From Chroogloeocystis siderophila 5.2 s.c.1 (GTDB taxonomy: Bacteria; Cyanobacteriota; Cyanobacteriia; Cyanobacteriales; Chroococcidiopsidaceae), in assembly GCF_001904655.1 (NCBI RefSeq), contig NZ_MRCC01000009.1:124001-188000 (forward strand): DNA of 64,000 bases. Direction: 5' to 3'. The position numbers were made by a program, and so were the translations under genes. How positions within the stretch are numbered: position 1 is the first letter of the stretch; the number at the start of each line of letters is the position of its first letter. Of this stretch, positions 6,977-35,465 are shown piece by piece. Under the pieces are notes generated by a model that saw only the letters and a program-made list of their open reading frames with translations, was not told where the DNA came from and searched no databases.

Positions 6977-6990
6977 GCTTTAGCCTTGCC

Positions 6991-8827: not shown

Positions 8828-8837
8828 AGATTACTGA

Positions 8838-10004: not shown

Positions 10005-10038
10005 TTTCTTGGCATTAATTTAGTATGGTTTATCAAAG

Positions 10039-11821: not shown

Positions 11822-11842
11822 AATTCTTAGTGGTTACCTCCA

Positions 11843-16103: not shown

Positions 16104-16112
16104 AAAATTTAT

Positions 16113-17111: not shown

Positions 17112-17120
17112 CTTCAAATA

Positions 17121-18140: not shown

Positions 18141-18469
18141 TTTGAGATGTATTTTTTAGAAATATATAAATTCTTCTTTGGGTAATGTTTCAGGATTAAT
18201 AAAAATGCTGCAAATAGCCCCCATAATTCTCATGTTTGAGGAAATTACAACGCTAAAATCTTCTAGGGTGGGGGAAATAGAAACTGCTATTATTCTTCTA
18301 GTAAATATCAAACTAGATTCTCCCAATTTCAAAAAATTATATGATCGAAAACCAAAAAGTATGTCTTATTTAGGTCTATATTATGGTGTATTTATGTGTA
18401 AGAATTGTCTCTATTTAGGAATTTAGATAAAGTAGAAGTGTTTGCATTAATATAGAGTTCTATTAGGTA

Positions 18470-18483
18470 TTCAGATATCTGAA
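18470..18483. promoter_or_regulatory. Perfect 14-bp palindrome upstream of yjdF
   Basis: TTCAGATATCTGAA is self-complementary over all 14 bases. It lies 80 bp upstream of the yjdF start and 12 bp from a second, longer palindrome. It is a candidate operator or half of a paired site. Confidence 0.4.
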
Positions 18484-18495
18484 AGTTTGGTATAT

Positions 18496-18515
18496 ATTCT
18501 ATATGCATATAGAAT
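18496..18515. promoter_or_regulatory. Perfect 20-bp palindrome upstream of yjdF
   Basis: ATTCTATATGCATATAGAAT is self-complementary over all 20 bases. It lies 48 bp upstream of the yjdF start, a position typical for a dimeric repressor site. No regulator gene is adjacent. Confidence 0.5.
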
Positions 18516-18563
18516 TATTTCGCTTCAGGCAACGCAGAATTTTTATGATGATTGGAGTTGGAA

Positions 18564-18974
18564 TTGAAGCTGACAATTTTATTTAACGGTCAATTTTGGG
18601 AAGGCGTAGTTGAAATAAACTACGAAGGTTGTTTTAAAGCCGGAAGACATATATTTGGTTCAGAACCTAAAGATCCTGAAGTTTTGAACTTTGTAATCCA
18701 TTCCGCACTGAGAATTTTAGAAAATACCACTTCTTCAATAGAATTAAATGTATGTGAAGAAAAGAAAGTTAATCCTAAGCGTCTTGCAAGAGAAGTTGCC
18801 AAAGAGTCTGTCAGAGGCGTGTCTACAATGGCACAGGAGGTAATTCAACGCGAGTTAGAAACTCGAAAAAAGGAAAAGAAAGTGGTTTCTAAAGCTCAGA
18901 AAGAAGCCGAAAAAGAGCAAAAACGTTTACTTGCGCAGCAAAAAGCAAAAGCAAGACATCGTGGTAAAGGTTAA
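18564..18974 (+). CDS. yjdF: YjdF family protein (DUF2992)
   Basis: The 136-aa protein starts KLTILFNGQFWEGVVE and ends in a Lys/Glu/Gln-rich coiled tail with KAKARHRGKG. Both are hallmarks of the YjdF family, known mainly from Firmicutes. There, yjdF genes are often controlled by an RNA that senses azaaromatic compounds; the protein's role is unknown. I chose the TTG at 18564 because GGAG stands 6 nt before it and because family members begin with MKLT. A TTG four codons upstream is also in frame. The gene stands alone behind two palindromes, with a pseudogene convergent to it. Presence in a cyanobacterium suggests horizontal transfer. Confidence 0.82.
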   Translation: MKLTILFNGQFWEGVVEINYEGCFKAGRHIFGSEPKDPEVLNFVIHSALRILENTTSSIELNVCEEKKVNPKRLAREVAKESVRGVSTMAQEVIQRELETRKKEKKVVSKAQKEAEKEQKRLLAQQKAKARHRGKG

Positions 18975-19834: not shown

Positions 19835-20731
19835 CTAAATTAATAATGCATCGATTAATCGTCTCCACGCTACGAGATCGCCATTTTTAAATGTAAGAAG
19901 ATCAGTCAAATCATCAAAATCTCGATGAATTCCATCCTTATACTTTTTAACTTTATCTTCGAAAGAATTTACTTTTACATTATCTGTCTTACCCTGAAGC
20001 AAAAAATTGCAATAATAGTCAAATAAATCTATCAGTATTTGGAAGGGAAGGACTAAGTCTTCATAGTTTAGGTTTTGACAATACTCGTTGTATTCCTCTA
20101 GCATTCCTCGAATGATCAGATATTCTAAATAGTTGAGTTTGACAAAAGGATTGTTAGGAAATTTCTGTAATGCATCTTGCATAAGCTGCATCGACCGAGT
20201 AGGTTCATTTTGCTTTAATAAGAAAACTGCGTACCGTTTCACTGCCCAAGTGTAAGCAGGATTTTTAGTCAAAACCTCATTGTAAACTTGTTCTGCTACT
20301 TCTATACGGTTGTACTTTTCTAAGAAATAAGCATAATGCGAGAGTGTCCACAAGTCCTCACCATAACCATTCTGTAAAGCTTTTTGATACCACTCATAAG
20401 CGCGATCCATCAGAAAGTTTCGCTCTAAAACGTAAGCGTAGTAGTTGGCTCCTTCACTTCGATTTGTGGTAAATGCTTGTTCAAGATGATGCAGCGAGGT
20501 TGCGTAGTCGTAAGTTTTACCATAGCATTGACCAATTCCGTAATGAAAGTCTGCTGTTTGTTGGTGCTTCAGCAAGTGTTGATAGAGTTTGGTTGCTACT
20601 TTGTAGACATCTTCTGTACGTAAAAAATCTGCAACTTCAGCAATTGATGCGATCGCATATTCTTGATATTGGTTAAGAATCTTTTCATACTCATGATTTC
20701 GAGCAAGATTCATCAACTCGTTTTCTATCAT
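19835..20731 (-). CDS. TPR-repeat protein beside NACHT ATPase
   Basis: The 298-aa soluble protein is made of about six tetratricopeptide-like helical pairs (residues 40-215; for example ATKLYQHLLKHQQTADFHYG and ANYYAYVLERNFLMDRAYEW). A non-repeat C-terminal domain ends in AWRRLIDALLI. TPRs mediate protein contacts, and no catalytic motif is visible. The gene starts 23 bp after the stop of the HTH-NACHT gene and is read with it, so the pair probably forms a small operon. It may be a partner or sensor for the STAND ATPase. I do not recognise a closer family. Confidence 0.7.
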   Translation of the reverse strand: MIENELMNLARNHEYEKILNQYQEYAIASIAEVADFLRTEDVYKVATKLYQHLLKHQQTADFHYGIGQCYGKTYDYATSLHHLEQAFTTNRSEGANYYAYVLERNFLMDRAYEWYQKALQNGYGEDLWTLSHYAYFLEKYNRIEVAEQVYNEVLTKNPAYTWAVKRYAVFLLKQNEPTRSMQLMQDALQKFPNNPFVKLNYLEYLIIRGMLEEYNEYCQNLNYEDLVLPFQILIDLFDYYCNFLLQGKTDNVKVNSFEDKVKKYKDGIHRDFDDLTDLLTFKNGDLVAWRRLIDALLI

Positions 20732-20754: not shown

Positions 20755-23118
20755 TTAACTTGCTTGAAAAGCAGTTTTGTGCCAAAGTGACAATGCTTTA
20801 ATTTCGGTAAGTGGTAGTAACAAATTGTCTTGAATTTCTTGCCGCACTCGATTGCTGAGATAACAGCTATCGTTCAGACAATCTATCAATAATTGGTTGG
20901 CATCGTAGTATTGTTTAAGTATTTCCATCTGCTGACGGCTAAACTGCCAATCGTAACCAAAATCGCGGTAGGAAATAGAGATGACCTTTAATTGTTCTAT
21001 CCAAGAATTACCGTTAGCTTCCCACCACAGGTCAAATTCACTCTCGTTAAGTGAGCCGAATACTTGTGATTTGAGTTGTTCCAATTCTTGCTCAAGCTTA
21101 GGATCGACAATACTAGCACGGTTGATTGCTCGTTCAAGAACACGCTTGAAAGTCAGGATGCGCTTGGGAGTATCTTTAATGACATGATTAAGCGCCAGTG
21201 TCCGATCAAGCGCCAGGTCAAGTGCAAGCTCGTCATTTATTTTACGAGTCATTGTCGGCTCAAGCGCACGCGATAAATCTAAAGTACTACTGAATAGATT
21301 AGAAGTTCGTGATACGTCAAGGTCAAAATAGAAAGCTCGTGCGAGTACCAACTTTTGTAAACACATACTACGAGCTTTTTGGCTAACCCAAGTGAGAAAC
21401 GCTTGTAATTGATCATCTGTTGCTAGGAGTTGATCGACATGTTGCTTCATTAACAGCAGCAGATAGTCAGCATTTCGTAGCATACTAGCGCTAAACAAAA
21501 ATACTTCTCGCCAGCGCTTCTGTGTGCTATGACTAACCAGTTGTCGTAACCCTCGCTCTAAAGCATCAGGATTGGGATTGTCAACAATTTTCTGCGCTGT
21601 GAAATACTCATGAAATGTCAAGTGTGAAAACGAATAAATTCCCCTAGCGCGTTCCACTAACAACCCATGTTGAGCTTCGATTGATTTGAGAATGACTTCG
21701 CTATCGAGTTGGAATGCTTGAGTTGCCGTGACGCTAGTCGGTAAGCTACGAATATAATCAGCAATGTACTGTTCTAACTCTTGCTGACGGAAGAAGTATT
21801 CACCTTGTTCAAACGTCTGAAAAGCGATTTGGCTAAGTAGATCTTCCTTGTGTTTCACTGACAAGTTTTTGTAGACTTGCTCGCGTTCAATGTTACGCTT
21901 AGCATCCCATTTTTTGAGCAGTAGATTAATTCCTTCTTTGTAGAACTGCGTGCGATTAGTAGGAAAACTCGATGTTTCTGCAAATACTAGACATGTTAGC
22001 GTTAGTAATAACGGATTAGTCGCGATTTCGCGGATTGTAGCGTTTTGTTGGAGCTTTTGTAGAAAATTTGTACTTTCCTCGTGCGAAGCAAACCAGTTGT
22101 AAGCAAAACTGGCGATTTGCTCTGCATCAAAGTCAGCAATTTCTACCTCAGTAAACTCTTCAAAGGTATATTCGCGGGTTGCAATTCGACAAGTCAAGAC
22201 AAAATGGCAATGAAGAAACTTCGCTACAAAATTTCGGATTTCTTGAACAACGCGATAGCAATCTTTCTCCTGGACCTCGTCAAGTCCATCGAGTAAGACG
22301 AGCGCCCTACCATTAATTAATATTTGAGTTGTGATCGCGCTATCTATAATTCCACAGGTGGTAAACTGCTCGGCTATGTACTCAAGCAAGCTTGGCTGTT
22401 CGGGTGTTTCTGCAAAGTCTTTGAGCGCGATTAGGATGGGGACTCGATTGGCTTGTAGCTTTCCGTTGATGCATTGTAAAGCAATGTGCTTCAAAAAAGT
22501 CGTTTTACCTGCACCTGGTTTACCCAATATGACTAACTTGGTATGCTCTTGGAGTGCTTCTAAACCTGATATTGAGCTTTGAGTCACTTCCCCTAAGTTT
22601 GGACGCTCAAATTCCTCTGGAACGCAAACTTTGAGTAAATCGGCGAGTTCTAGTCGGCGTCGCCCCGTAATTTTTTTGAGTAGGTTAATTTTGGTATAAA
22701 TGTTGTTTAATTCAACGGGCTGAGACATATCTAGTACTCGCATTAGCCCGTACCTTTGTTCAATTGCGGTACGTAGTTTGTTGCGTACCTCTTGTACTGC
22801 TATATCTATGTCACACCGGCTACTGAAGTTAGTTAACGCTATCTGAGCAAATTCAACTTCCTCTCTTAAGTCCGCAGTTTCTTCCTCCCAGGTTTCTAGT
22901 TCAGCAACATCTTGCCAAGGTAATTCCAACCTTTGACAGATTTTATGAAAGTTTTCTCGCCCTACTGGTTTGCCAGCAAAGAACTTTTGCACTGTCGAGC
23001 GCGAGACTTCTAACTCATCTGCCAAGTCAAGTTTGGTTGCAAACATCAACATAGCCCGATTGGCGCGGTTAAGTCCTTCCGGTGATGCTCTTAGCGATCG
23101 CCCTGCCTGTACTTTCAT
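20755..23118 (-). CDS. HTH-NACHT STAND ATPase, putative signalling or defence protein
   Basis: The 787-aa protein begins with an XRE-like helix-turn-helix (about 22-72, DELEVSRSTVQKFFAGKPVG). After a linker it has a NACHT module: Walker A GKPGAGKT at 199-206, Walker B LVLLDGLDEV at 273-282, sensor-like HFVLTCR, and winged-helix elements such as FLSHLT-like FSHLTFHEYFTAQ. A long helical C-terminal region (about 530-787) replaces the WD40 or LRR sensors of other STAND proteins. NACHT proteins include bacterial antiphage factors (bNACHT), and this architecture is widespread in cyanobacteria. The biological role here is inferred only. It heads a possible operon with the TPR gene. Confidence 0.85.
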   Translation of the reverse strand: MKVQAGRSLRASPEGLNRANRAMLMFATKLDLADELEVSRSTVQKFFAGKPVGRENFHKICQRLELPWQDVAELETWEEETADLREEVEFAQIALTNFSSRCDIDIAVQEVRNKLRTAIEQRYGLMRVLDMSQPVELNNIYTKINLLKKITGRRRLELADLLKVCVPEEFERPNLGEVTQSSISGLEALQEHTKLVILGKPGAGKTTFLKHIALQCINGKLQANRVPILIALKDFAETPEQPSLLEYIAEQFTTCGIIDSAITTQILINGRALVLLDGLDEVQEKDCYRVVQEIRNFVAKFLHCHFVLTCRIATREYTFEEFTEVEIADFDAEQIASFAYNWFASHEESTNFLQKLQQNATIREIATNPLLLTLTCLVFAETSSFPTNRTQFYKEGINLLLKKWDAKRNIEREQVYKNLSVKHKEDLLSQIAFQTFEQGEYFFRQQELEQYIADYIRSLPTSVTATQAFQLDSEVILKSIEAQHGLLVERARGIYSFSHLTFHEYFTAQKIVDNPNPDALERGLRQLVSHSTQKRWREVFLFSASMLRNADYLLLLMKQHVDQLLATDDQLQAFLTWVSQKARSMCLQKLVLARAFYFDLDVSRTSNLFSSTLDLSRALEPTMTRKINDELALDLALDRTLALNHVIKDTPKRILTFKRVLERAINRASIVDPKLEQELEQLKSQVFGSLNESEFDLWWEANGNSWIEQLKVISISYRDFGYDWQFSRQQMEILKQYYDANQLLIDCLNDSCYLSNRVRQEIQDNLLLPLTEIKALSLWHKTAFQAS

Positions 23119-24148: not shown

Positions 24149-25057
24149 ATGATTGCTGTAAATAGGTTAAAAACATTGTTAAATGCTGGTTATTTTGTTG
24201 TGTCAGCTGAGTTAACACCACCGCGACATTACAAAATAAAGCCATTAATTAGCAAAGCAGAAAAAATTGCTGATTATGTAGATGTAGTGCATTTAAATGA
24301 CAACGCGCTGTCACAAGCACGGTTATCTAATGTTGTAGCCGCACATTTAATTCAGCAAATAGGAATTGAACCTGTTGTGCAGCTTACACTACGTCATAAA
24401 AATCGAATTGCTTTGCAGAGTGACTTATTAGGGCTAGCGGCACTGGGAATTCGCAACGTGATGATTTTAGGAGGCTATCCCTGTTCAATTGGTAGCGATC
24501 CAGAAGCAAAGGAGGCAAATGATATATCTGCAATTGATGCGATCGCCGCAATCCACAACTTAACAACCTATGGAAAAATGTTTAATGGAGACGCGATCGC
24601 GCCCGCACCTGACTTTTATATCGGAACCATCGCCCTTCCCTATGCCACGCCGGATAAATTGGATGAGAGTATGGCGCTTTTGGAGGCAAAAATTGCTCGC
24701 GGCGCACGTTACATTCAACTACAAGCAACTTTCGATCTAACTGCAATGCAGCAATGGATGGCAGAAGTTGTGAAACGAGGGTTGCATCAGCGAGTTCATT
24801 TTATTGGAGCAGTCTTTCCTTTTAGTAGCTGGAAAGGACTTGAGTTTTTACAGAAAATGCCAGGCTTCTACATTCCTAATGAAGTTGTCGAGCGCATCCG
24901 CAGGGGTGATTGTAAGTCAGAAAGCCTAAAAATTACTTTAGAGCTAATTGAAGGTATGCAAGCAATCGAAGGCATTCGCGGCATTCATTTACGATTGATT
25001 GGTTCGAGTGATTGTTCTCAAATTGTCCAGTTAGCAGGGTTACGGCAATTCGCTTAG
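24149..25057 (+). CDS. Methylenetetrahydrofolate reductase family protein
   Basis: The 302-aa product belongs to the MTHFR (PF02219) TIM-barrel family, which reduces 5,10-methylene-THF to 5-methyl-THF with FAD. Supporting segments are FVVSAELTPPRH at the first strand, HLNDNALSQARLSN, VVQLTLRHKNRIALQSDLLG, VMILGGYPCSIGSDPEA and ARYIQLQATFD. It lacks a C-terminal extension. It is transcribed toward the polyketide genes and ends about 200 bp before KS-alpha. It could supply methyl groups or be an F420/other-cofactor homologue. Whether it belongs to the biosynthetic locus is uncertain. Confidence 0.85.
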   Translation: MIAVNRLKTLLNAGYFVVSAELTPPRHYKIKPLISKAEKIADYVDVVHLNDNALSQARLSNVVAAHLIQQIGIEPVVQLTLRHKNRIALQSDLLGLAALGIRNVMILGGYPCSIGSDPEAKEANDISAIDAIAAIHNLTTYGKMFNGDAIAPAPDFYIGTIALPYATPDKLDESMALLEAKIARGARYIQLQATFDLTAMQQWMAEVVKRGLHQRVHFIGAVFPFSSWKGLEFLQKMPGFYIPNEVVERIRRGDCKSESLKITLELIEGMQAIEGIRGIHLRLIGSSDCSQIVQLAGLRQFA

Positions 25058-25260: not shown

Positions 25261-26535
25261 ATGAAACGAGTAGTAATTACAGGTATTGGTGTTGTGGCTC
25301 CTTTAGGAATCGGTAAGGAGCAGTTTTGGAAAAATGCAATTCGCGGACAATCGTATTTACAAGCCGATCCAGAAATGGAGGCGATGGGGATTAAAAGTAA
25401 AGTGGTTTGTCGAGTTGCTGATTTCGATCTTTCCGATTACTGTTCGGGAGTGGAGTTTGACCACTTAGTTGAGCAAGATCGAGTTGTGCAATTTGGGGTT
25501 GTTTCTGGTACGGCGGCGATCGCGGATTCAGGTTTAGATTTGAGTCAAGAAGATCCTGAATCTTTAGGAATTATCTTTTCATCGGCGATCGGTGGTACGC
25601 CCACAATCCAAAAAATCTTTGAGCGGTGCAGCGAAAAAGGTAGCCAGCCGTTAAGACACGTCGCCACGGGTGAGAATTTCTACAACGCAGGAATGTTTAA
25701 TTATCCTGCGGCATTACTCGCACGGAAATACGAATTTCAAGGACCGTGTACCTCGCTATCAACAGGTTGCACGGCGGGGTTAGATGCATTGGGCTTGAGT
25801 TTTGAACTAATTCGTTCTGGTGAATGCAAGGTAATGCTGGCTGGAGCATCAGAAGCGCCGCTCACAAGCTTGACATATGCAACACTTGATGTCATAGGAT
25901 CGCTTTCAGTAGCAGATTGCGAACCAGAAAAGGCATCGCGTCCATTTGATGCCAAGCGTGGTGGATTCGTGATTAGCGAAGCTGCTGCGGTACTCGTACT
26001 AGAGGAACTCGAACACGCGTTGAATCGTAACGCGCATATTTATGCCGAAGTTGTGAGTTACTACAGCGTCAGTAATGCCTTTCACATGACGGATCTGCCC
26101 GATCATGGAGTTCCAATGGCAGCAGTGATGGAACGGACGCTCCATCTAGGTAATGTTGAACCAGAGGAACTTGATTATATCAATGCGCACGGTAGTTCCA
26201 CACCGCAAAACGATTTATTTGAGACGAATGCTTATAAGCAAGTACTAGGCGATAAAGCATACCGCTTGCCAATTAGCTCAACCAAGTCGATGATTGGTCA
26301 TTCGCTCTCTTCTGCAAGTTTAGTAGGAGTTGTAGCAACTTTGGGGGCAATTGAACTTTCGGTTATTCATCCGACTGCCAATTACGAGTTTCCCGATCCC
26401 AATTGTGACCTTGATTACGTACCTAATGAAGCGCGTTCCACAGAGGTCAACACCGCGCTGCTGACAGCGAGTGGTTTCGGTGGTATCCATTCGGCAGCAA
26501 TTTTTAAAAAGTATCAGGAGTCGTTAGGTGAGTAA
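25261..26535 (+). CDS. Type II polyketide synthase ketosynthase alpha (KS-alpha)
   Basis: The 424-aa enzyme condenses malonyl-ACP units in an iterative type II PKS. The active-site loop GPCTSLSTGCTAGLDALG carries the nucleophile Cys170. The catalytic His residues are H310 in INAHGSSTPQND and H347 in TKSMIGH, with conserved Lys342. The stretch AHGSSTPQNDLFETNAYKQVLG follows the signature of actinomycete aromatic KS-alpha proteins (AHGSGTxQNDxxET) more closely than that of fatty-acid FabF. It overlaps the KS-beta gene by 8 bp, the translational coupling usual for KS-alpha/KS-beta pairs. Such pairs are rare in cyanobacteria as far as I know. Confidence 0.93.
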   Translation: MKRVVITGIGVVAPLGIGKEQFWKNAIRGQSYLQADPEMEAMGIKSKVVCRVADFDLSDYCSGVEFDHLVEQDRVVQFGVVSGTAAIADSGLDLSQEDPESLGIIFSSAIGGTPTIQKIFERCSEKGSQPLRHVATGENFYNAGMFNYPAALLARKYEFQGPCTSLSTGCTAGLDALGLSFELIRSGECKVMLAGASEAPLTSLTYATLDVIGSLSVADCEPEKASRPFDAKRGGFVISEAAAVLVLEELEHALNRNAHIYAEVVSYYSVSNAFHMTDLPDHGVPMAAVMERTLHLGNVEPEELDYINAHGSSTPQNDLFETNAYKQVLGDKAYRLPISSTKSMIGHSLSSASLVGVVATLGAIELSVIHPTANYEFPDPNCDLDYVPNEARSTEVNTALLTASGFGGIHSAAIFKKYQESLGE

Positions 26536-27736
26536 ACACGATGTGGTAGTTACTGGTATTGGTATTATCAACCCTGCTGGTATTGGTAAAGATGAATTTT
26601 GGCACAATATTAGTACAGGTAAGTCGGCAATTCGCGAGATTAGCCGCTTTGATTCGACAGACTTTCCCACTAAAGTTGCGGGTGAAATTGCGGAGTTTGA
26701 GCCAGCCGATTATATCCCGCGTCGCTTTATTGTTAAAACAGATCGATTTACGCATTATGCTCTAGCCGCAACCGAATTAGCGCTGCAAGATGCCACACTT
26801 GATTTAACTCAAGAAGATTCGTATCGCGTTGGTGTTTGGTTTGGTAACAATGCAGGCGGTTGGGATATCTGCGAACGTGGATTTTACGAACTGTATAACG
26901 ACGGCGCAACAATGGTCAATCCTTGGCAAGCAACCGCGTGGTTTCCAACAGCCGCCCAAGGATATGTGACGATTCGCTATGGAATTCGCGGGTATAGTAA
27001 GAGTTTTGTTTGCGATCGCGCCAGTGGTGCCAGTGGATTGTACTTTGGCATCAAGTCAATCCAAGAAGGATTCAATGATGTCGTTATCGCTGGCGGTTCA
27101 GAAGCACCGATCACGCGGTTTGGGATGACGTGCTACTACGAAACCGGAGAAGTCAGCGCCGCGACTGACCCAGAAAAAGCTTATTTACCCTTCGACCGCA
27201 ATCGCACAGGCTTAGTATTAGGTGAAGGAAGTACGGTGTTAGTGCTAGAGTCTGAAGAACATGCCCGTAATCGGGGTGCGAAAATTTACGGTAAAGTCGT
27301 CTCAGGTTGCATGACGACAGATACCGATCCTACCAGTGGCGTTCACTTTGAGCGCTGCATGTCACGCGCAATTCAATCCGCACAACTTCAACCCAAAGAT
27401 ATTGATGTTGTTTTAGCCGAAGGCTGCGGAACACAACAAAGCGATCGCATCGAAGGCGAAGCTATTTCTACGGTTTTTGCGCAAGCGCCAAACGTTGCAG
27501 TTTCTGTTCCAAAAGCACTTTACGGACATCTTTATGGTGCAAGTTGCGTTACTGAGGTCGCTTGCAGCCTCTTAGCAATGGAAACCGAACAATTACCGAC
27601 AATGAGTCAAACCGAGCCAGATGCAGACTGTCGGCTCAACTTTGTGACGCAACCGCAGAGTCATCCGGTACGCCACGCACTCGTCAATTCCCGCGCCCGC
27701 GAGGGAGTGAATGCATCGTTTGTGATTGCTAAGTGA
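26528..27736 (+). CDS. Type II polyketide synthase KS-beta / chain-length factor
   Basis: The 402-aa KS homologue would form a heterodimer with KS-alpha and set chain length. It starts at a GTG inside the end of the KS-alpha gene. The catalytic Cys is absent: the aligned loop reads CDRASGASGL (162-171), with Gly167 at the Cys position, where actinomycete factors usually have Gln. The first catalytic His is replaced by Glu297 in LAEGCGTQQSD, as in chain-length factors (AxG). The GH of the second His motif is kept in YGHLYGAS. These changes show a non-condensing partner. Confidence 0.9.
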   Translation: MSKHDVVVTGIGIINPAGIGKDEFWHNISTGKSAIREISRFDSTDFPTKVAGEIAEFEPADYIPRRFIVKTDRFTHYALAATELALQDATLDLTQEDSYRVGVWFGNNAGGWDICERGFYELYNDGATMVNPWQATAWFPTAAQGYVTIRYGIRGYSKSFVCDRASGASGLYFGIKSIQEGFNDVVIAGGSEAPITRFGMTCYYETGEVSAATDPEKAYLPFDRNRTGLVLGEGSTVLVLESEEHARNRGAKIYGKVVSGCMTTDTDPTSGVHFERCMSRAIQSAQLQPKDIDVVLAEGCGTQQSDRIEGEAISTVFAQAPNVAVSVPKALYGHLYGASCVTEVACSLLAMETEQLPTMSQTEPDADCRLNFVTQPQSHPVRHALVNSRAREGVNASFVIAK

Positions 27737-27803
27737 CGCGATCGCGCATGGCAGCAATTACCAATTACTACTAAAGTTACGTTTTTGATTGAGGTATCTA
27801 CCT

Positions 27804-28046
27804 ATGGTCATGGATGCGCTAAAAGACATCTTAGTTGATTTAGGAATTCCCGAACACGAGATTACAGAAGCAGCACTGCTGCGCAAAGACTTGCAACTCG
27901 ACTCGACAGAAACCGTCGATATTTCCCTTGGACTCAAACGCCGCTTTGGTGTCAATGTCAAACTAGAATCCCGCAAGGACATGACATTAAAAGATGTTTG
28001 CGAGATGGTTAACAGCGCGATCGCGGCTACCGCTACGGCGACATGA
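27804..28046 (+). CDS. Acyl carrier protein
   Basis: The 80-aa carrier has a phosphopantetheine attachment serine at S34 in LQLDSTETVDI and the usual four-helix pattern. The ATG at 27804 follows GAGG by 9 nt and is preferred to a TTG five codons upstream. Its stop codon overlaps the AcpS start as ATGA. It is the dedicated carrier of the type II PKS, placed straight after KS-alpha/KS-beta as in classic minimal PKS operons. An Ala/Thr-rich tail follows the last helix. Confidence 0.92.
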   Translation: MVMDALKDILVDLGIPEHEITEAALLRKDLQLDSTETVDISLGLKRRFGVNVKLESRKDMTLKDVCEMVNSAIAATATAT

Positions 28047-28489
28047 GACCCTCCGGGAAAGGAATACAAAGTTTCATGTATCTACAACTTGCCCAACCAA
28101 GACAAGCCGAAATTAAAGGCATCGGAATTGATATCGCACCCGTTAGCAAAATTGCCTCTCTAGTCAGTCGCTACAACAGCGAAACGCTGACTTTGCTATT
28201 TACTCCTCGCGAAATTGAACAATGTCAATCTGCACCGCATCCTAGTCGGTATTATGCTGTATGTTTTTCAGCGAAAGAAGCTGTAGGAAAAGCCCTAGGA
28301 ACTGGATTAGTTGATATCAACTGGAACGAGATTGAATCGACAATATCGCAGTCAGGACTAACAATCAAGCTACGCGGCGCAGCAAAACAGAAAGCATTGC
28401 AGTGTGGAGTGAAAGCATGGCTCGCAACTTGGTGCTACTGGGATGATTATGTGATGGTTCACGTTCTTTCAAAGGGCGAACAAGCATGA
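28043..28489 (+). CDS. Holo-ACP synthase (AcpS-type phosphopantetheinyl transferase)
   Basis: The product transfers 4'-phosphopantetheine from CoA to the ACP serine. The AcpS hallmarks are GIGIDIAPV with the Mg-binding Asp, FTPREIEQC and FSAKEAVGKALGTG with the catalytic Glu/Lys. The gene overlaps the ACP stop (ATGA) and the next gene's ATG. The 148-aa form starts at that overlap; an internal ATG at 28076 would give 137 aa, closer to typical AcpS length. An extra AcpS inside a biosynthetic operon implies that the PKS carrier has its own activating enzyme. Confidence 0.9.
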   Translation: MRPSGKGIQSFMYLQLAQPRQAEIKGIGIDIAPVSKIASLVSRYNSETLTLLFTPREIEQCQSAPHPSRYYAVCFSAKEAVGKALGTGLVDINWNEIESTISQSGLTIKLRGAAKQKALQCGVKAWLATWCYWDDYVMVHVLSKGEQA

Positions 28490-30033
28490 ATCAGTACGAA
28501 CAACTACCTGACATTTTCAATGTTGCAGCCTACTTTATTAAAGGTAATTTGCATAAAGGCTATGGCGAACGAATTGCTTTGTATCATCAGGACGACACAT
28601 ACACGTATCGCAAAGTCAGTAACGAAGTTTGTGCTGCTGCTGGATTACTTGCGGAGTTAGGTTTAGAACGCGAAAATCGATTCGCGATTCTCTTACCTGA
28701 TAGTCCAGATTTTGTCTTTGCGTTTTGGGGGGCGATTTGGTTAGGTGCTGTCCCAGTGCCAATCAATACTGCATGTAGCCTTGATGATATCAAGTACATT
28801 CTGCAAGATTGTCGCGCTAAAATCTTACTCACAACTCAAGAGTGGCAAGAAAAACTTTCGCCAATTCAATCTCCGTTCTTACGGAATATTCTCTTGACGG
28901 ATGGAGATAACTCCTTTAGGACACTTGCAAGCTCATTTCCTCAAGAACGACCACCCGCACAAACATCTCCCGACGAACCAGCGTTTTGGCTTTATACTTC
29001 CGGTAGCACAGGTAGACCCAAGGGCGCGATTCATCTTCATCGTAGTATGGTCTTCTGTGCAGAACAGTACGGTAAAGCAACGCTTGGTTTGCATCAAGAC
29101 GACATCACGTATTCGATCGCCAAGATGCCGTTTGCCTACGGTTTAGGAAACACCTTGTATATGCCGATGGCGGTTGGGGCAGCATCAATTTTGTCGGATG
29201 CGAATAATGCGTTTGACATCATTGCCGATATTCATCGCTATCGACCGACAATTTTGTTTGCGATTCCTGCGACCTATGCTAGTATTCTGGCAGTGCAAGA
29301 TATTGCGCCTTTAGATGCTTCCACATTACGCTTGTGTGTATCGGCGGCAGAGCAATTACCGAAAAGTATTTGGCAAAGATGGCGTACTACCTACGATATA
29401 GAAATCTGCGAAGGTATTGGTACAACTGAGTTTTTACACATCTTTCTTTCCAATCGTTTAGGCGAGTGTCGTCCTGGTAGTTCCGGTAAACCTGTTGTTG
29501 GCTACGATGTCCGCATCATTGATGAAAATAGCGTACCGATGCCTACCGGCGAAATTGGTAACTTGCAAGTCGGTGGCGATAGTTTAATGCTGTGTTATTG
29601 GAACCGTCATCAAGAAACGCGCCAAGTCATTCACGGTAATACGATGCGTACTGGAGATAAGTATCTTTGTGACGCAGATGGCTATTTCTGGTTTATGGGA
29701 CGCAAAGATGACCTGTTTAAGGTTAACGGACAATGGGTGTCGCCATTTGAAATCGAAGATGTGTTGCTGCAACACGAAAGTGTTCTTGATGTTGCAGTCG
29801 TACCAGAATCTGAAAGTGGTGAAAATTTAACACAAGTTGTGGCGTACATCAGCCTCAAAGCTGGCTTCTCCGAGTCGGCTGAACTCGAAGAAAGTATTCG
29901 TAGATTTGCCAAAATGCAACTACCGCGATTTAAAGCTCCGAAAAAAATTCAATTTCTAGAACGCTTACCGCGTACCTCAACCGGAAAAATTCACCGCAAA
30001 GCATTACTCAAAGCCAGTCAACTGGTTCAATAA
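28486..30033 (+). CDS. Benzoate-CoA ligase family AMP-forming ligase
   Basis: The 515-aa adenylating enzyme has ATP motif TSGSTGRPKG (171-180), GIGTTEFLHIF at the acyl pocket, the TGD-like RTGDKY motif and catalytic Lys501 in TGKIHRK. Its overall build and length match benzoate/4-hydroxybenzoate-CoA ligases. With a salicylate synthase in the same operon, salicylate is the best guess for the substrate. The product would be a salicyl-CoA or a directly loaded ACP. It overlaps AcpS by 4 bp, so it is part of the same transcript. Confidence 0.92.
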   Translation: MNQYEQLPDIFNVAAYFIKGNLHKGYGERIALYHQDDTYTYRKVSNEVCAAAGLLAELGLERENRFAILLPDSPDFVFAFWGAIWLGAVPVPINTACSLDDIKYILQDCRAKILLTTQEWQEKLSPIQSPFLRNILLTDGDNSFRTLASSFPQERPPAQTSPDEPAFWLYTSGSTGRPKGAIHLHRSMVFCAEQYGKATLGLHQDDITYSIAKMPFAYGLGNTLYMPMAVGAASILSDANNAFDIIADIHRYRPTILFAIPATYASILAVQDIAPLDASTLRLCVSAAEQLPKSIWQRWRTTYDIEICEGIGTTEFLHIFLSNRLGECRPGSSGKPVVGYDVRIIDENSVPMPTGEIGNLQVGGDSLMLCYWNRHQETRQVIHGNTMRTGDKYLCDADGYFWFMGRKDDLFKVNGQWVSPFEIEDVLLQHESVLDVAVVPESESGENLTQVVAYISLKAGFSESAELEESIRRFAKMQLPRFKAPKKIQFLERLPRTSTGKIHRKALLKASQLVQ

Positions 30034-30048
30034 CAAAGGATAACTTTA

Positions 30049-30447
30049 ATGGTAACGCAGCAAAAAAGACGCTTGGTAATGGGACCAAGTGACGTACCGA
30101 CGATTGATGACCGAGGTGGTGAGATTCATGTCTTGATTTCTCCCACCAGCGTACAGTCCACTAAGTTGATTATGGGGACAGCAACTGTACCAGTGGGTGG
30201 CAGAGTATTATGTCACGCGCATCCGCATGGTGAGGAGTGCTTTTATGTATTGCAAGGGCAAGGCGAAATCGAAATTGCAGATGTGGGTGTTGTTCCGTTT
30301 CAAGCTGGACAAGCAGTGCTGACTCCCCAAGGTGCAGCGCATTCGATTGTCAATGTTGGCAATGAAGAAATTCGCGTTGTTTTCGCCTCAGCCCCTTTAG
30401 CACCTTCCCCCAAAGACGGACACATTATTCTTGAAGGAGAACATTAA
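30049..30447 (+). CDS. Cupin-fold protein, possible polyketide cyclase
   Basis: The 132-aa single-domain cupin has metal motif 1 CHAHPHGEECFYVLQG (HxHxxxxE type) and motif 2 with His in PQGAAHSIVN. Several cupins in type II PKS clusters help cyclise or oxidise poly-beta-ketone intermediates. Others are isomerases or dioxygenases. It sits 15 bp after the ligase gene, between priming and cyclase genes, behind an AAGGA ribosome site. A role in ring formation is an inference from context. Confidence 0.82.
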   Translation: MVTQQKRRLVMGPSDVPTIDDRGGEIHVLISPTSVQSTKLIMGTATVPVGGRVLCHAHPHGEECFYVLQGQGEIEIADVGVVPFQAGQAVLTPQGAAHSIVNVGNEEIRVVFASAPLAPSPKDGHIILEGEH

Positions 30448-30448
30448 A

Positions 30449-30778
30449 ATGAAGAACATGATGCAAGAAGCACCGGATGTTGCCCAGAGTTTCTTTGATC
30501 TGGCAAAGTCGGTGAAGCAGTATTCTCCGCTTGATGAAAAGGTCAATGAATTAATTATTATCGGTATCTTCAGCGCGCATCGGGGTTTACGAGGCATTAA
30601 TACTCATGTAGAGCGCGCTATCGCAGCGGGTGCGACTAAAGAAGAAGTGATCGCCGCAATTCTTTTGGCATTACCGATTGTAGGCATTACCGATGTCAAT
30701 ATGGCGTTGGATCAGGCAATGGAGACGATCGCAATGACAGCCGATAAGAAGGAGGTTGCAGGTGCGGCGGCTGGTTGA
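30449..30778 (+). CDS. Carboxymuconolactone decarboxylase (CMD) family protein
   Basis: The 109-aa helical protein has the CMD/AhpD core (FFDLAKSVKQYSPLDEKVNELI, HVERAIAAGATKEEVIAAILL). The redox CxxC of AhpD is missing: the equivalent stretch reads SAHRGLRGINTHVE. A peroxidase role is therefore unlikely, and a lyase or cyclase-like role is possible. The ATG at 30449 follows AAGGAG well; a TTG at 30431 has no ribosome site. The gene starts one base after the cupin stop and overlaps the PF04199 cyclase by 17 bp, so expression is coupled. Confidence 0.82.
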   Translation: MKNMMQEAPDVAQSFFDLAKSVKQYSPLDEKVNELIIIGIFSAHRGLRGINTHVERAIAAGATKEEVIAAILLALPIVGITDVNMALDQAMETIAMTADKKEVAGAAAG

Positions 30779-31556
30779 TTTGAGCGTATTGGTCGAAAAC
30801 TCGGCGTCAGAACCGATGGAAATTCGCGTCGAGCGACTCGATCATATTGCTGGTGCTAAGCATTTTTGTGCGGAAGTAGCGACACGGAATGCTGCGAAAT
30901 CTGATTCGCGTCGTCTTGAACCGGAAGATTTTCCTGATGGTGCGTTTATTACTTTAGATACTGTCACTTTACCCACACACATGGGAACGCACATTGACGC
31001 ACCGATTCATTACGGATCAGATTGTGAAGGTTCACCAGCGCGTTCGGTCGATCAATTGCCGCTAGAGTGGTTCTATAATGATGGTGTACGCCTCGACTTA
31101 CGCCACAAACAGCCTCAAGAGTTTATTACGATCGCAGATATCAAAATCGCCCTAGACGCGACAAAACACGCACTCAAGCCGCTTGATATTGTTCTAATTT
31201 GGACGGGAACCGATAAACTCTGGGGGAAACGCGAGTATTTTTCCCATGCACCAGGGATGAGTCGCGAAGCTACCGAATGGTTGGTAGAACAAGGAATCAA
31301 AGTTATTGGAATTGACACTTATGGTTTTGACCGTCCGTTTGTGACGATGCTAGAAGACTTTTGGCGGACAGGCGATCGCAGTTATCTTTGGCCGGCACAC
31401 TTCTACGGTCGCGAACGCGAATATATTCAAATCGAACGTCTTGCTAATCTCGATCAGCTACCCGACACAGGATTTCAAGTTGCTTGTTTTCCCCTGCGTG
31501 TTAAAGGTTTAGATGCTAGTTGGGTACGGGCAGTAGGGATAGTTAATGAGTTTTGA
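30762..31556 (+). CDS. PF04199 cyclase family protein
   Basis: The 264-aa metal-dependent protein has the family motif THMGTHIDAPIHY (HxGTHxDxPxH), which binds Zn or Mn. The family includes kynurenine formamidase and the late-ring cyclases DpsY and OxyN of aromatic polyketide pathways. I chose GTG 30762 because AAGGAGG lies 6 nt upstream. The in-frame TTG two codons earlier abuts that site and cannot be used. In this operon a ring-closing role on the polyketide chain is the best reading; hydrolysis of an activated intermediate is the alternative. Confidence 0.88.
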   Translation: MRRLVDLSVLVENSASEPMEIRVERLDHIAGAKHFCAEVATRNAAKSDSRRLEPEDFPDGAFITLDTVTLPTHMGTHIDAPIHYGSDCEGSPARSVDQLPLEWFYNDGVRLDLRHKQPQEFITIADIKIALDATKHALKPLDIVLIWTGTDKLWGKREYFSHAPGMSREATEWLVEQGIKVIGIDTYGFDRPFVTMLEDFWRTGDRSYLWPAHFYGREREYIQIERLANLDQLPDTGFQVACFPLRVKGLDASWVRAVGIVNEF

Positions 31557-31611
31557 ATTAACTATCCAACAACTTTACAACAGTAATTTATAGCTTTCAA
31601 GGAGTGCTAAT

Positions 31612-32094
31612 ATGACAGGTTATACCGAAAACAATATTGTTATCTTGCGAGATTTTGATACTGTCTTTGAGCTAACAAACGATATTGAACTTTGGCCACA
31701 ATTATTTACTGAGTACGAAAAAGCCGAAGTGCTAGAGCGTAATGGTAACGAAGTTTTGTTTAGCTTGACGACTTACCCTGAAGGCGATCGCCCTTCGCGG
31801 ACTTGGGTTTCGCGCCGACTCATTGACAAGCCTGGAAAACAAGCTACCGCTGAACGTGTCGAAAAAGCCTTTCCGTTCAAGGATATGAAAATCCATTGGA
31901 CGTATGAAGAGTTACCGCAAGGCGTGGGTGTGGTGATGACTTGGATGCAAAAGTTTGAAATCCACGATGATTGCAAGTGGACAACCGAGCAAATGGAATC
32001 TTTTCTCAACCGCAATACCCGCGTTCAAATGCGAGCAATTAAAGAAAAAGTTGAAGCTTGGTCTGTGAAGTCTCTGACAACAAACGCTGTTTAA
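31612..32094 (+). CDS. SRPBCC aromatase/cyclase
   Basis: The 160-aa START-like protein resembles polyketide aromatase/cyclases such as TcmN-ARO and WhiE-VI. It begins with a hydrophobic beta strand and a helix ELTNDIELWPQLFTEYEKAEV. The family WVSRR-type strand is seen as TWVSRRLID, and the long C-terminal helix is NRNTRVQMRAIKEKVEAW. Proteins of this type enclose the poly-beta-ketone chain and direct the first ring closure and aromatisation. It sits 55 bp after the PF04199 gene with a good AAGGAG site. Confidence 0.9.
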   Translation: MTGYTENNIVILRDFDTVFELTNDIELWPQLFTEYEKAEVLERNGNEVLFSLTTYPEGDRPSRTWVSRRLIDKPGKQATAERVEKAFPFKDMKIHWTYEELPQGVGVVMTWMQKFEIHDDCKWTTEQMESFLNRNTRVQMRAIKEKVEAWSVKSLTTNAV

Positions 32095-32127
32095 TTCTTA
32101 CCGCAACAACCCTAAGGAGTCATATCA

Positions 32128-33450
32128 ATGTACCAGCTAGCAACTGATTTTTTAACCTATCACGAAATGTTTGTTCCAGGTCAGAAAGACCCACTTGTTA
32201 TTTTGCAAACACTATTGCAAACGGGGATTTTTTCTGAATATGTGATGTACGAAAGTGAAAGTGAGGTACGGATTGCGGGTAATGCTTTAGCTGAGGTTAC
32301 AGTCAGTGCTGAAACTGTTTCTAGTCGATTTATGAGCCAGAAGCACTCAGAAAGTTGTACCGATCCGCTTAAGCAAGTTGAGGCAATTTTTGCGTCTTTA
32401 CCAGTAGAAAACTGGACGGCTTATGGTTACGTTGGCTTTGATATTGCGCGCTTTTATTACTCGTATTCTAAAGCAATTGATCAGCCATTACTATACTTTT
32501 TAGTTCCTGAAACCGAACTTTATATCACTACCAAAGGTGTACATATTAGAAGTATCAAATCGCCTGCTAAAGTTTTAGAAGTCTTATCCGTTGATAGCAA
32601 ATTAGCAGAATACGTGCCGACTCCTCCGACGGTGGCTGCAACGGAAAATCAACAATATGAAAAACAAGTTGCAACTTTAATCGATGCAATTCAAAATGGT
32701 GAGTTGCATAAAGCAATTATCTCGCGATCGGTGAAAGTAAAAGGGAATATGGATGTTCTTGGTACTTATGTATTAGGAGCCAAGAGCAACAACGCGGCGC
32801 GATCGTATTGTATGAACGTGGGAGATGTGTCCGCTGTCGGCTTTAGTCCTGAGATTTTGATGGAAGTTAGCACCGATGGGTTTGTTGTTACCAATCCGCT
32901 AGCAGGAACGCGTCCGCGTAGTTCTAATTCAGAAGAAGACACGCGCCTAAGTGATGAATTATTTATTGATGCTAAAGAAGTCAAAGAACACGCGCTTTCA
33001 GTTTGGTTAGCACAAAGCGAGATTAGTACAGTTTGTTCGCCCGAAACTGTGCAGATTTTTGACTTTATGCAAGTTAAGCAATATCGTTGCGTGCAACATT
33101 TATCGTCGCGGGTTGGGGGACAACTCAAACCAGGGAAAACGCTGTGGGATGCATTGAAAGTATTATTTCCTGGAATTACAGTATCTGGAATTAACAAGCA
33201 TGAAGCTTTAGCATGGATTGACCGCTTGGAAGCAGAACCACGAGGCATTTATGCAGGTGGTATTGGGTGGATCGATAGCAGCGGTACAGCAGATTTAGCG
33301 ATCGCAATTCGTTCAGTTTATCAATACGGTGACTCGGTTTATCTCAATGCCGGTGCAGGTATCGTTGCTGAATCAGTTCCACAAAACGAATTTGTTGAAT
33401 CAGTTAACAAGATGAATACGATGCTTACCAATCTAGTAATGGAGTCCTAA
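32128..33450 (+). CDS. Salicylate synthase (chorismate-utilising, MbtI/Irp9 type)
   Basis: The 440-aa enzyme converts chorismate to isochorismate and then to salicylate plus pyruvate. Family motifs are GELHKAIISR with base Lys195, LAGTRPR, DAKEVKEHALSV, the Ser/Gly loop TVSGINKHEALAWI, RGIYAGGIGW and NAGAGIVAESVPQNEF. Length and motif set fit MbtI, Irp9 and YbtS better than anthranilate synthase. Siderophore genes (NRPS, ferric receptor) are absent nearby, so salicylate here most likely feeds the aryl-CoA ligase and the type II PKS. Confidence 0.9.
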   Translation: MYQLATDFLTYHEMFVPGQKDPLVILQTLLQTGIFSEYVMYESESEVRIAGNALAEVTVSAETVSSRFMSQKHSESCTDPLKQVEAIFASLPVENWTAYGYVGFDIARFYYSYSKAIDQPLLYFLVPETELYITTKGVHIRSIKSPAKVLEVLSVDSKLAEYVPTPPTVAATENQQYEKQVATLIDAIQNGELHKAIISRSVKVKGNMDVLGTYVLGAKSNNAARSYCMNVGDVSAVGFSPEILMEVSTDGFVVTNPLAGTRPRSSNSEEDTRLSDELFIDAKEVKEHALSVWLAQSEISTVCSPETVQIFDFMQVKQYRCVQHLSSRVGGQLKPGKTLWDALKVLFPGITVSGINKHEALAWIDRLEAEPRGIYAGGIGWIDSSGTADLAIAIRSVYQYGDSVYLNAGAGIVAESVPQNEFVESVNKMNTMLTNLVMES

Positions 33451-33460
33451 TTAGTCATCC

Positions 33461-33488
33461 AATTACCAATTACACATTACCCATTGCA
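33461..33488. repeat. Short tandem heptamer repeat
   Basis: Four degenerate heptamers, AATTACC, AATTACA, CATTACC and CATTGCA, fill the 41-bp gap between salicylate synthase and the hydrolase. They belong to the same class as the array at 7854. Confidence 0.6.
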
Positions 33489-33491
33489 AGT

Positions 33492-34292
33492 ATGTCTTTT
33501 ATTCAGGTTGCAAATCGCAAAGTTCATTACCATGCGCCTTTGGGGTTGCCGTCACTGGGCGATCGCATGATGTTGCTAGTACACGGTGCGGGAGGAAGCT
33601 GCCGTCATTGGGAACCAGTACTTGCTCAACTCGATGCGGCAGAATGCTTTCCTGTCGCGATTGATTTACCAGGACATGGGGCTTCAGATGGGTATGTCCC
33701 TGAGTCGATCGACGCTGTGGCTGAGTTCCTCAATGCCTTTTTGGATAGCTTAGGAATTGAGCATCCGATTTGTTACGTGGGACAATCTATGGGCGGCTTG
33801 ATCGGATTGCAATTTGCGCTGACTTACCCAGATCGCGTTGCGCAGTTGGTTTTGATGGCAACATCCGCACGCATTCAACTTCATCCTGATTTTCTTCAGC
33901 AGGCGATAACTGGGCAATGGAATCGCGAAACTCTCTGGCAAAGCTTTGCGCCTGAAGTCCCCGAAAATCTCAAAGAACTTGTTTTAGGTGAGTTTCAACA
34001 TACTCGCTTAAAAGCCAATGCCTCAGATTTTATGGGCGTGAGTTCTGTCGATCTGAGTAGCGCGGTGTCAGCTTTACGGCTTCCGACTTTGATTCTCACC
34101 GGAGATGATGACGTGATTATCTCGCCGCGCAAATCTAAGATGTTACACTCGCAAATTGACAACTCTCATTTAGTCACTATAACTGGCGCGGGTCACTATT
34201 TGCACGTCGAACAACCCGTGAAAGTGGCATCAGAAATCTTGCAATTTGTCAAGGGCGATCGCTTGCTGTCAGGTTTACAAATTCGTAACTAA
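33492..34292 (+). CDS. Alpha/beta hydrolase, possible polyketide release enzyme
   Basis: The 266-aa hydrolase has the oxyanion motif HGAGGSCRHW, nucleophile elbow GQSMGG with Ser99, the acidic residue in LTGDDDVI and catalytic His in GAGHYLHVEQP. The triad is complete. It is the last gene of the polyketide run, 41 bp after salicylate synthase. A thioesterase-like role in freeing the finished chain from ACP is likely from context. A methyl-ester or lactone hydrolase remains possible. Confidence 0.88.
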   Translation: MSFIQVANRKVHYHAPLGLPSLGDRMMLLVHGAGGSCRHWEPVLAQLDAAECFPVAIDLPGHGASDGYVPESIDAVAEFLNAFLDSLGIEHPICYVGQSMGGLIGLQFALTYPDRVAQLVLMATSARIQLHPDFLQQAITGQWNRETLWQSFAPEVPENLKELVLGEFQHTRLKANASDFMGVSSVDLSSAVSALRLPTLILTGDDDVIISPRKSKMLHSQIDNSHLVTITGAGHYLHVEQPVKVASEILQFVKGDRLLSGLQIRN

Positions 34293-34327: not shown

Positions 34328-34448
34328 TCTCTTTGGGGTAGTTAGGACATTGAAGGTACGAATAACCATTACCCTAACTCATTTTAAACCCTGACCTCTG
34401 CTATATATTTTTTGCGTTTTTACTCAAGATCTTCAGTGAGGGTTGAAT

Positions 34449-35465
34449 ATGGAAGTACGATTTGACTCTAATTTCAATTCTTCGGCTAGGCGATCGCTGA
34501 GCGAAAACCGCAGCTATGCAATTCTTGGTACTGGCGCATTAGGTGGCTTCTATGGTGCGCGACTACAACAAGCTGGAATTGATGTTCACTTTTTGCTCCG
34601 CAGCGATTACGAGTACGTCAAGAAACATGGTTTATTTATCGAATCTCCGGATGGTACTTTCCGCCTCCCGCAGGTGAACGCCTACCGTAATGTACATGAT
34701 ATGCCATGTTGTGATGTCATCGTTGTTGCCTTAAAAACAACGCAAAACAATTTACTGCGACAAATGCTACCGTGTTTGGTCAAAGATAATAGTGTTGTCT
34801 TGGTGTTGCAAAATGGTTTGGGTGTAGAGGAGGAAGTTGCTGGGATTGTCGGATCAAATCGCGTGATGGGTGGGCTGTGCTTCACGTGTAACGATAAAGT
34901 TGCTCCAGGTCACTTCCGACATCTCCATTATGGTGTGATTACGCTCGCCGAATACGCTTATGACTATCTAGCTTGTGGAATTACCAAACGAATGCTTCAG
35001 GTCAAAACTGACTTTGAACGTGCTGGTATTCTCATTCAATTAGCGGAAGATCTGCTTTTAGCACGTTGGAAAAAACTTATCTGCAATATTCCCTTTAATG
35101 GTCTTACTGTCGTACTTAATGCAACTATCAAAGACTTGATAAGTGACGTGCATACGCGGGCTTTGGTCGAGGAGATGATGCAAGAAATGGTAACAGTTGC
35201 AGCAGCTTATCATCGAGCGATCGCAGATGACTATATCGAGAAACGACTCAAATATATCGCCAAAATGGGACCTTACCGCACAAGTACAAAAATTGACTTT
35301 GACTACAGGCGATCACTAGAAGTCGAGGCAATTTTCGGCAACCCGTTACGTGCGGCGCAACAAGCTGGTATCGATACTCCACAACTTGCCATGCTTTACC
35401 GACAGCTAAAGTTTTTAGATACCTATTACTGTACAGATAGAGCGATCGCGGTTTTAGCTCACTAA
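34449..35465 (+). CDS. Ketopantoate reductase (PanE/ApbA) family protein
   Basis: The 338-aa NAD(P)-dependent enzyme has the N-terminal dinucleotide fold AILGTGALGGFYGARL (about 25-40). The PanE-type VLQNGLGVEEEV and the C-terminal helical domain with KLICNIPFNGLTVVL carry the conserved Lys and Asn. Homologues annotated as putative 2-dehydropantoate 2-reductase are common in cyanobacteria. ATG 34449 has GAGGG at a good distance; an in-frame TTG at 34443 does not. It lies 156 bp after the polyketide operon and may be a housekeeping gene or a ketoreductase used there. Confidence 0.85.
   Translation: MEVRFDSNFNSSARRSLSENRSYAILGTGALGGFYGARLQQAGIDVHFLLRSDYEYVKKHGLFIESPDGTFRLPQVNAYRNVHDMPCCDVIVVALKTTQNNLLRQMLPCLVKDNSVVLVLQNGLGVEEEVAGIVGSNRVMGGLCFTCNDKVAPGHFRHLHYGVITLAEYAYDYLACGITKRMLQVKTDFERAGILIQLAEDLLLARWKKLICNIPFNGLTVVLNATIKDLISDVHTRALVEEMMQEMVTVAAAYHRAIADDYIEKRLKYIAKMGPYRTSTKIDFDYRRSLEVEAIFGNPLRAAQQAGIDTPQLAMLYRQLKFLDTYYCTDRAIAVLAH

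Follow-up and report, generated by a model that had tools for sequence, protein, structure and literature searches.

Which starter unit does a type II polyketide synthase (PKS) of a cyanobacterium use, what kind of compound does it make, and how far do the genes of its pathway extend? The system that raises these questions is encoded in a stretch of 64,000 nucleotides of Chroogloeocystis siderophila 5.2 s.c.1 (contig NZ_MRCC01000009.1, positions 124,001 to 188,000), in the following termed the window, to which all coordinates refer unless another locus is named. We consider it likely that the genes at window 1860-35465, spanning about 34 kb, direct the synthesis of a thermorubin-type, salicyl-primed aromatic polyketide, and the basis for this is observed gene content, catalytic residues, colinearity, phylogeny and co-occurrence. 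The PKS itself belongs to a published family and hence is not a new discovery; new are the wider boundary of the locus and the association with yjdF.

The center of the locus shows the hallmarks of type II aromatic PKS systems, i.e. a pair of elongating ketosynthase (KS-alpha) and KS-beta or chain length factor (CLF), a discrete acyl carrier protein (ACP) with adjoining phosphopantetheinyl transferase (PPTase), and cyclase/aromatase genes. Hallmarks of the group that comprises the thermorubin PKS and the gloPKS are present as well, namely a salicylate synthase (SalS) and an aryl ligase inside the operon, and a colinear core of 11 genes. The original prediction had described a minimal type II PKS (KS-alpha, KS-beta, ACP), with which open reading frames (ORFs), families, catalytic residues and tree agree, and all genes it named were identified correctly, but it overlooked the CMD-family protein at 30431-30778. 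The predicted overlaps of 4-8 bp are 8 bp at KS-alpha/CLF and 4 bp at both ACP/AcpS and AcpS/ligase, with a gap of 52 bp from CLF to ACP. The ligase reaches 489 bits against the benzoate-CoA ligase family TIGR02262 (cut-off 375), and SalS 347 bits against TIGR03494 (cut-off 325), with MbtI/Irp9-type enzymes as top matches in the Protein Data Bank (PDB). A PDB search with the SRPBCC protein gave 3tl1 (E 6e-30) and tcmN (E 4.5e-29); relatives of the PF04199 cyclase are isatin hydrolases and kynurenine formamidases, and the cupin has weak matches to oxalate-decarboxylase cupins and, at E 0.003, to tetracenomycin-synthesis cupins. AcpS is one of three such matches genome-wide. For the ACP, there was no Pfam match, and the NCBIfam ACP matches were all below cut-off.

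KS-alpha retains Cys-His-His, and in each of the 11 aligned cyanobacterial pairs as well as in Laceyella, an Arg takes the Cys position of CLF. In a ketosynthase tree, which the original prediction had suggested as a check, KS-alpha groups with actKS and AntD (SH-aLRT 99), with none of the nine FabF rows in the group, and CLF groups with actCLF; both starred groups are free of FabF rows, and Laceyella is the sole non-cyanobacterial row in the starred 12-row groups of KS-alpha and CLF. This tree of 58 rows was computed by a quick method with SH-aLRT support alone, it has long branches (actCLF, actKS, AntD), and its nine FabF rows do not form one side of any branch. KS-alpha also remains under the cut-off of the fabF profile (392 vs 494 bits). 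Its best PDB sequence match is 6smo_B (E 3e-97), which we take to be AntD of the Photorhabdus Ant type II PKS; this chain tops the PDB matches, yet it lies outside the closest clade of the window KS-alpha, and the Ant cluster probably differs in its other gene content. KS-alpha/CLF pairs with 40-45% identity occur also in two Dehalococcoidia loci (L042, L043) together with PF04199 and SRPBCC cyclase homologs, and no SalS match was found within these loci.

Type II pairs were predicted to be rare in cyanobacteria, and indeed CLF was detected (E 1e-110 or better) in only 10 of 388 genomes of the order and in 3 of 386 genomes of an overlapping phylum sample. Ten other loci share all 11 genes and their order, and the core arrangement therefore is not due to chance. 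In our genome set, in which G000 is the window's own genome and f19 a second family including G036, G062 and G230, these loci are those of G001, G002, G004, G008, G010, G036, G062, LEGE 10410 (= G230) and Stenomitos frigidus ULC18, and the tenth is that of Laceyella sacchari DSM 43356, where all 11 core genes have identities to the window from 44% (AcpS) to 68% (PF04199 cyclase). The nearest genome is G002, with a CLF that is 98% identical.

In vitro data exist for an ortholog. The gloPKS of Gloeocapsa sp. PCC 7428, a culturable strain, is described in PMC11744666 as KS-CLF, ACP, PPTase and salicylate:CoA ligase (gloSCL), and was there already likened to the thermorubin PKS of L. sacchari; thermorubin is named as salicylate-primed in PMC12664062, and Cyanobacteria are listed among KS-CLF-bearing phyla in PMC10132072. 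According to PMC11744666, gloSCL puts salicyl on engineered gloACP in vitro, which leads to C29 products with 11 malonyl units, and the reaction turns orange/brown. The window has the same minimal PKS, PPTase and ligase, and its ACP shares Q31, S34 and T35 with gloACP if translation starts at ATG 27804, which may be the true start, as the numbering then fits. The prediction of a salicylate starter is thus backed by gene content, by the 11-gene colinearity with Laceyella and by the in vitro work on gloPKS (PMC11744666), and salicylate priming is probably the right interpretation. For this ortholog, priming and the C29 chain are known from in vitro work, and the window PKS shows that gloPKS is a member of a family which extends across several cyanobacterial families and includes Laceyella.

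In the pathway proposed here, SalS would convert chorismate to salicylate, which the ligase would activate and load onto the phosphopantetheinylated ACP. KS-alpha/CLF would add about 11 malonyl units to yield a C29 chain, as published for the ortholog, and the SRPBCC, PF04199 and cupin proteins would be responsible for folding and aromatization. A cytochrome P450, an ABM monooxygenase and three O-methyltransferases (OMTs) would decorate the product, and DevBCA would export it; YjdF would probably shield the producer, be it through binding of the planar product or through guarding the ribosome, and the riboswitch that precedes two of the yjdF genes may sense the product. We infer the roles in tailoring, export and protection as well as the final structure, and if the tailoring block is part of the pathway, it predicts methylated and oxidized products beyond the C29 compounds formed in vitro. 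Gloeocapsin, a dark Gloeocapsa pigment for which an anthraquinone-like structure, but also a coumarin or a flavonoid, has been suggested (PMC10359912), was considered as product and dropped, as no link to the locus was found; Phormidesmis nigrescens, a reported gloeocapsin producer, was outside the best 80 of 216 matches, with inclusion of its genome in the searched set being uncertain.

Could the PKS rather be primed by acetate or malonate, with the salicylate genes serving a siderophore that is assembled elsewhere? Malonate-only products are also formed by gloPKS in vitro (PMC11744666), and contig C4 of the same genome (L125:2659-18452) indeed carries a salicylate-using cluster with its own ACP, salicylate:CoA/ACP ligase (SCL) and SalS, a major facilitator superfamily (MFS) protein, a KSIII-ACP protein, a nonribosomal peptide synthetase (NRPS; C-A-PCP), a type I PKS and a luciferase-like protein. 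PMC4247773 describes such genes as salicylate starter of anachelin. Judged from these genes, the genome has a related salicylate cassette that serves an assembly line of a different kind. Clusters of the anachelin type (PMC4247773) have the ACP, ligase and SalS cassette in common with the window, often also AcpS, but here the cassette supplies an NRPS/type I PKS line that includes a KSIII-ACP protein, and no CLF match was found at these loci save one 23% hit. Among the 388 genomes, SalS relatives (E 1e-80 or better) occupy 57 places in 50 genomes, which are nine type II loci, one remnant in G183, the C4 copy and 46 others; 29 of the 39 examined among these 46 have a counterpart of the C4 KSIII-ACP protein, in most cases accompanied by matches to ACP, SCL, NRPS and type I PKS and often by AcpS, and of the ten without it, seven are without any SCL match. 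The C4 SalS, which is just under the TIGR03494 cut-off (323 vs 325 bits), and the C4 SCL are both 67% identical to the window copies, and in the trees they group with other siderophore-type copies at starred support. The original prediction had named a clear grouping of ligase and SalS with siderophore enzymes, with the remaining genes elsewhere in the genome, as evidence that would count against it; the separate C4 copies show this grouping, and the type II copies fall together at weak support (SalS 26/0, SCL 65/92). The type II operon thus has a cassette of its own. Moreover, SalS and SCL are part of the type II operon throughout, both at the window locus and at each of the ten further complete loci, Laceyella among them, and the ortholog ligase loads salicylate on an (engineered) PKS ACP (PMC11744666). 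Priming by acetate alone with a purely siderophore-related use of salicylate is thus very improbable, and both readings were set aside.

With salicylate priming as the preferred reading, the limits of the locus have to be considered. The predicted boundaries 25261-34292 look too narrow, as PKS-associated genes lie also at 1860-18974, 19835-20731, 24149-25057 and 34443-35465 (Table 1). In the f19 genomes G036, G062 and G230, yjdF lies near an OMT, an NxxGxxAF-repeat protein, an MFS protein and DevBCA, with P450 and ABM in the neighborhood, and window 1860-18974 holds a similar set in different order and without adjacent MFS gene. PKS and tailoring block are on one contig in G230 (about 2.7 to 36 kb, ~33 kb) and G062 (about 1332 to 1372 kb, ~40 kb), and on two contigs in G036. 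G008 has an OMT-like gene (48-51%) near the PKS, and ABM and yjdF on another contig. Identities to f19 are 60-62% for DevA, 56-57% for DevC and 34-35% for DevB; no homolog of the ferric-reductase-like flavoprotein was seen in G062 or G230. An earlier view that the cyanobacterial locus has no methyltransferase was dropped once three OMTs were found upstream. In the Results and Discussion of PMC11744666, tailoring genes, yjdF and the methylenetetrahydrofolate reductase (MTHFR) paralog are not discussed.

It could be argued that the genes at 1860-18974 form a cluster of their own, which merely adjoins the PKS, as this block is mostly on the opposite strand, includes genes in between which we take to be glycosyltransferase- and glycoside-hydrolase-like, and was not found in the 21-kb Stenomitos sequence. 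As P450, OMT1, OMT3, ABM, the Dev genes and yjdF accompany the PKS also in a second family, with changed order and on single contigs in G230 and G062, this is unlikely.

At the 5' edge, close relatives of the MTHFR paralog (E 1e-70 or better) occur in 8 of 388 genomes, seven of them CLF-positive and the eighth being G183 with its remnant, i.e. only together with the locus or its remnant; the CLF-positive G008, G062 and G360 have none at this threshold, and the Stenomitos paralog is 60% identical. The co-occurrence with CLF has a Fisher p of about 4e-12 if the remnant is taken as CLF-negative, which is descriptive, as related genomes are not independent. The PanE-like reductase at the 3' edge is unmatched at the loci of Laceyella, Stenomitos and G008. 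The 298-aa protein at 19835-20731 is presumably TPR-like. The NACHT gene at 20755-23118 was rejected as a cluster gene: Stenomitos and G008 have one upstream of the PKS, too, but genes of this kind occur in several copies in these genomes, also close by (L039 has two matches). Beside yjdF of G230, an FAD-dependent halogenase/monooxygenase-like gene is found (L228:7532-8782), which is matched in 0 of 10 other compared sets.

Table 1. Features of the locus, in window coordinates.
Feature	Position	Strand	Basis and remarks
Cytochrome P450	1860-3215	-	PF00067; 67% in three f19 loci
O-methyltransferase 1 (OMT1)	3234-4274	-	PF00891; 64-68% in f19 loci
O-methyltransferase 2 (OMT2)	4290-5399	-	PF00891; best matches outside close relatives 45-51%, no clear ortholog there
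ABM-family monooxygenase	5494-5841	-	PF03992; 72-74% in f19 loci, 62% in G008
O-methyltransferase 3 (OMT3)	5903-6976	-	PF00891; 59-61% in f19 loci
DevBCA ABC exporter	8102-11238	-	DevA 8102-8827, DevC 8838-10004, DevB 10039-11238; homologs beside yjdF in f19
Ferric-reductase-like flavoprotein	11843-13171	-	PF01794, PF00175; 56% homolog in G036
NxxGxxAF-repeat / DUF7453 protein	13574-14716	-	35-39% homologs near yjdF in f19
yjdF / DUF2992	18552-18974	+	PF11208, 142 bits (cut-off 23.8)
298-aa protein, no family call	19835-20731	-	55-58% homologs near locus in f19 genomes and Stenomitos
MTHFR paralog, 5' edge	24149-25057	+	Better-scoring MetF on contig C7
KS-alpha, elongating ketosynthase	25261-26535	+	ORF, Pfam KS domains, Cys-His-His, tree
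KS-beta / CLF	26528-27736	+	ORF, Pfam KS domains, Arg replaces catalytic Cys, tree
ACP	27789-28046	+	Weak sub-cut-off NCBIfam ACP matches; motif LQLDSTETV
AcpS-type PPTase	28043-28489	+	PF01648
SCL, aryl-CoA ligase	28486-30033	+	AMP-binding; TIGR02262; ortholog gloSCL
Cupin, cyclase-type	30049-30447	+	PF07883 (Cupin_2)
CMD-family protein, role unassigned	30431-30778	+	PF02627; also in ten other complete loci
PF04199 putative cyclase	30756-31556	+	Pfam Cyclase
SRPBCC aromatase/cyclase, TcmN N-domain type	31612-32094	+	Polyketide_cyc; PDB search
SalS	32128-33450	+	Chorismate_bind; TIGR03494; PDB
Alpha/beta hydrolase	33492-34292	+	ORF, family match; 47% identity to Laceyella homolog
PanE-like reductase, 3' edge	34443-35465	+	One of two strong ApbA matches in genome; edge position in two cyanobacterial families

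The Laceyella locus has its own tailoring genes, namely LCM-type and class I methyltransferases, an ARD-like cupin and a weak DUF455 match, and none of these four has a window match at E 1e-6; the LCM-type methyltransferase was not found genome-wide either, in a search without positive control. Conversely, no match for the window P450, OMTs, ABM, DevB, DevC, MTHFR and PanE was found in the 21-kb Laceyella locus, and DevA is matched there solely at 26% by an ABC ATPase. As the Laceyella methyltransferases are of other families and the tailoring block was not found there, the final product should differ from thermorubin, and it may be new, as the original prediction had proposed.

What role might yjdF have in such a locus? 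PF11208 was found in 9 of 359 genomes of the order (G000, G001, G002, G004, G008, G010, G036, G062, G230), and all nine are CLF-positive; G360, the remaining CLF-positive genome, does not appear in this list, and it may or may not have been part of the 359. In Laceyella, the genes for an EmrB-family efflux MFS, the riboswitch RF01764 and yjdF are consecutive on one strand, with yjdF ~4 kb upstream of KS-alpha and the riboswitch at L041:4684-4794 (67.6 bits, gathering 45). In the metagenome-assembled cyanobacterial genome G008, RF01764 (L225:3205-3312, 70.9 bits) directly precedes yjdF. At gathering score, RF01764 was not found at the yjdF loci of the window, L216, L217, L218, L224, L226, L227 and L228, and an Rfam scan of the entire window gave no match. 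Near other KS/CLF or SalS loci, yjdF was seen at L041 alone among 120 loci, several of which are short. PMC4793209 lists Firmicutes, Actinobacteria, Fusobacteria, Spirochaetes and Synergistetes as phyla with yjdF riboswitches and proposes a role against toxic multi-ring compounds, and its main text contains no "cyanobacteri", "polyketide" or "Laceyella"; ligand and function are still called unknown in PMC10987639. In the open-access literature, no yjdF paper was found that combines thermorubin, PKS and cluster topics, in a search that a paper sharing only one such topic would escape. The link of yjdF with an efflux pump and a riboswitch suggests self-protection against the polyaromatic product. 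We tentatively propose, at somewhat short of even chances, that YjdF is a dedicated self-protection factor for thermorubin-type salicyl-primed polyaromatic polyketides, and that such planar polyketides are natural ligands of the riboswitch. If true, this YjdF-polyketide link would span Bacillota and Cyanobacteria, and the association may help to reveal the function of yjdF.

The association is correlative, being based on few lineages plus Laceyella, and yjdF may simply be a passenger of the cluster without function in the biology of the product. The gene is widespread (1826 coding regions in PMC4793209), it was also matched in the B. subtilis control of the PF11208 search, and the cyanobacterial hosts belong to only four genera, so that the association rests on few independent events. 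However, yjdF is retained over a deep divergence, with YjdF proteins of the two families being ~35% identical, it neighbors an MFS gene in Laceyella and also in three f19 genomes, and G014, which shares its genus with G004 and G010, has neither CLF nor yjdF. Six of the nine genomes (G000, G001, G002, G010, G062, G230) have the gene on the contig of the PKS, and in G004, G008 and G036 it is located on another one; in G004, the ends of the PKS and yjdF contigs may well adjoin. To conclude from the other contigs that the association is not mere synteny was judged too strong, as six of nine share the PKS contig. A passenger role is quite conceivable, though on balance doubtful.

Several points weigh against a thermorubin-type locus of the full extent, equipped with product-related protection. 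To our knowledge, no metabolite is known from this strain. The tailoring block was found neither in Stenomitos within 21 kb, save a 31% DevA-like match, nor at the Laceyella locus with its methyltransferases of other families; cross-family orthology is weak for OMT2 and DevB (34-35%), and P450, methyltransferases and ABM were compared among PKS-positive relatives. The window's own yjdF has neither a riboswitch match nor an adjacent MFS gene, and only two of ten yjdF genes scanned with Rfam have the riboswitch. In addition, the cognate PPTase failed to activate gloACP in vitro, and priming was achieved with an engineered ACP (PMC11744666), and the loss of yjdF did not make B. subtilis more vulnerable to the tested azaaromatics (PMC4793209).

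As one form of self-protection, YjdF could protect the ribosome, which is speculative and considered because thermorubin targets the ribosome (PMC12340950) and YjdF is small and basic. The predicted YjdF structure has a pLDDT of 74.8 and a pTM of 0.39. Foldseek gave no match at E below 0.1 for this model, with weak rows including Rv1738, Rv2632c, dsRNA-binding domains and HPF/YfiA. With VIA-align, the best Z was 4.8, and ribosome chains, probably S5 as judged from their names, came near Z 4, level with coiled coils and unrelated folds; no conclusion is based on these comparisons.

Two incomplete loci were also found. A Rhizonema contig of 5.6 kb contains KS-alpha, CLF, ACP and AcpS and then ends. 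The remnant in G183 (L199:7185-12445) consists of fragments of an MTHFR-like gene and of KS-alpha that share one frame, a frame resembling a transposase, presumably of IS630 type, a shortened SalS, the hydrolase and a PanE-like gene. Directly upstream of the type II locus, at two loci of f19 genomes, lies a further gene (L127:15324-16277, L199:12470-13381), which we take to be FabD-like by its sequence motif, and malonyl transfer requires an enzyme of this type.

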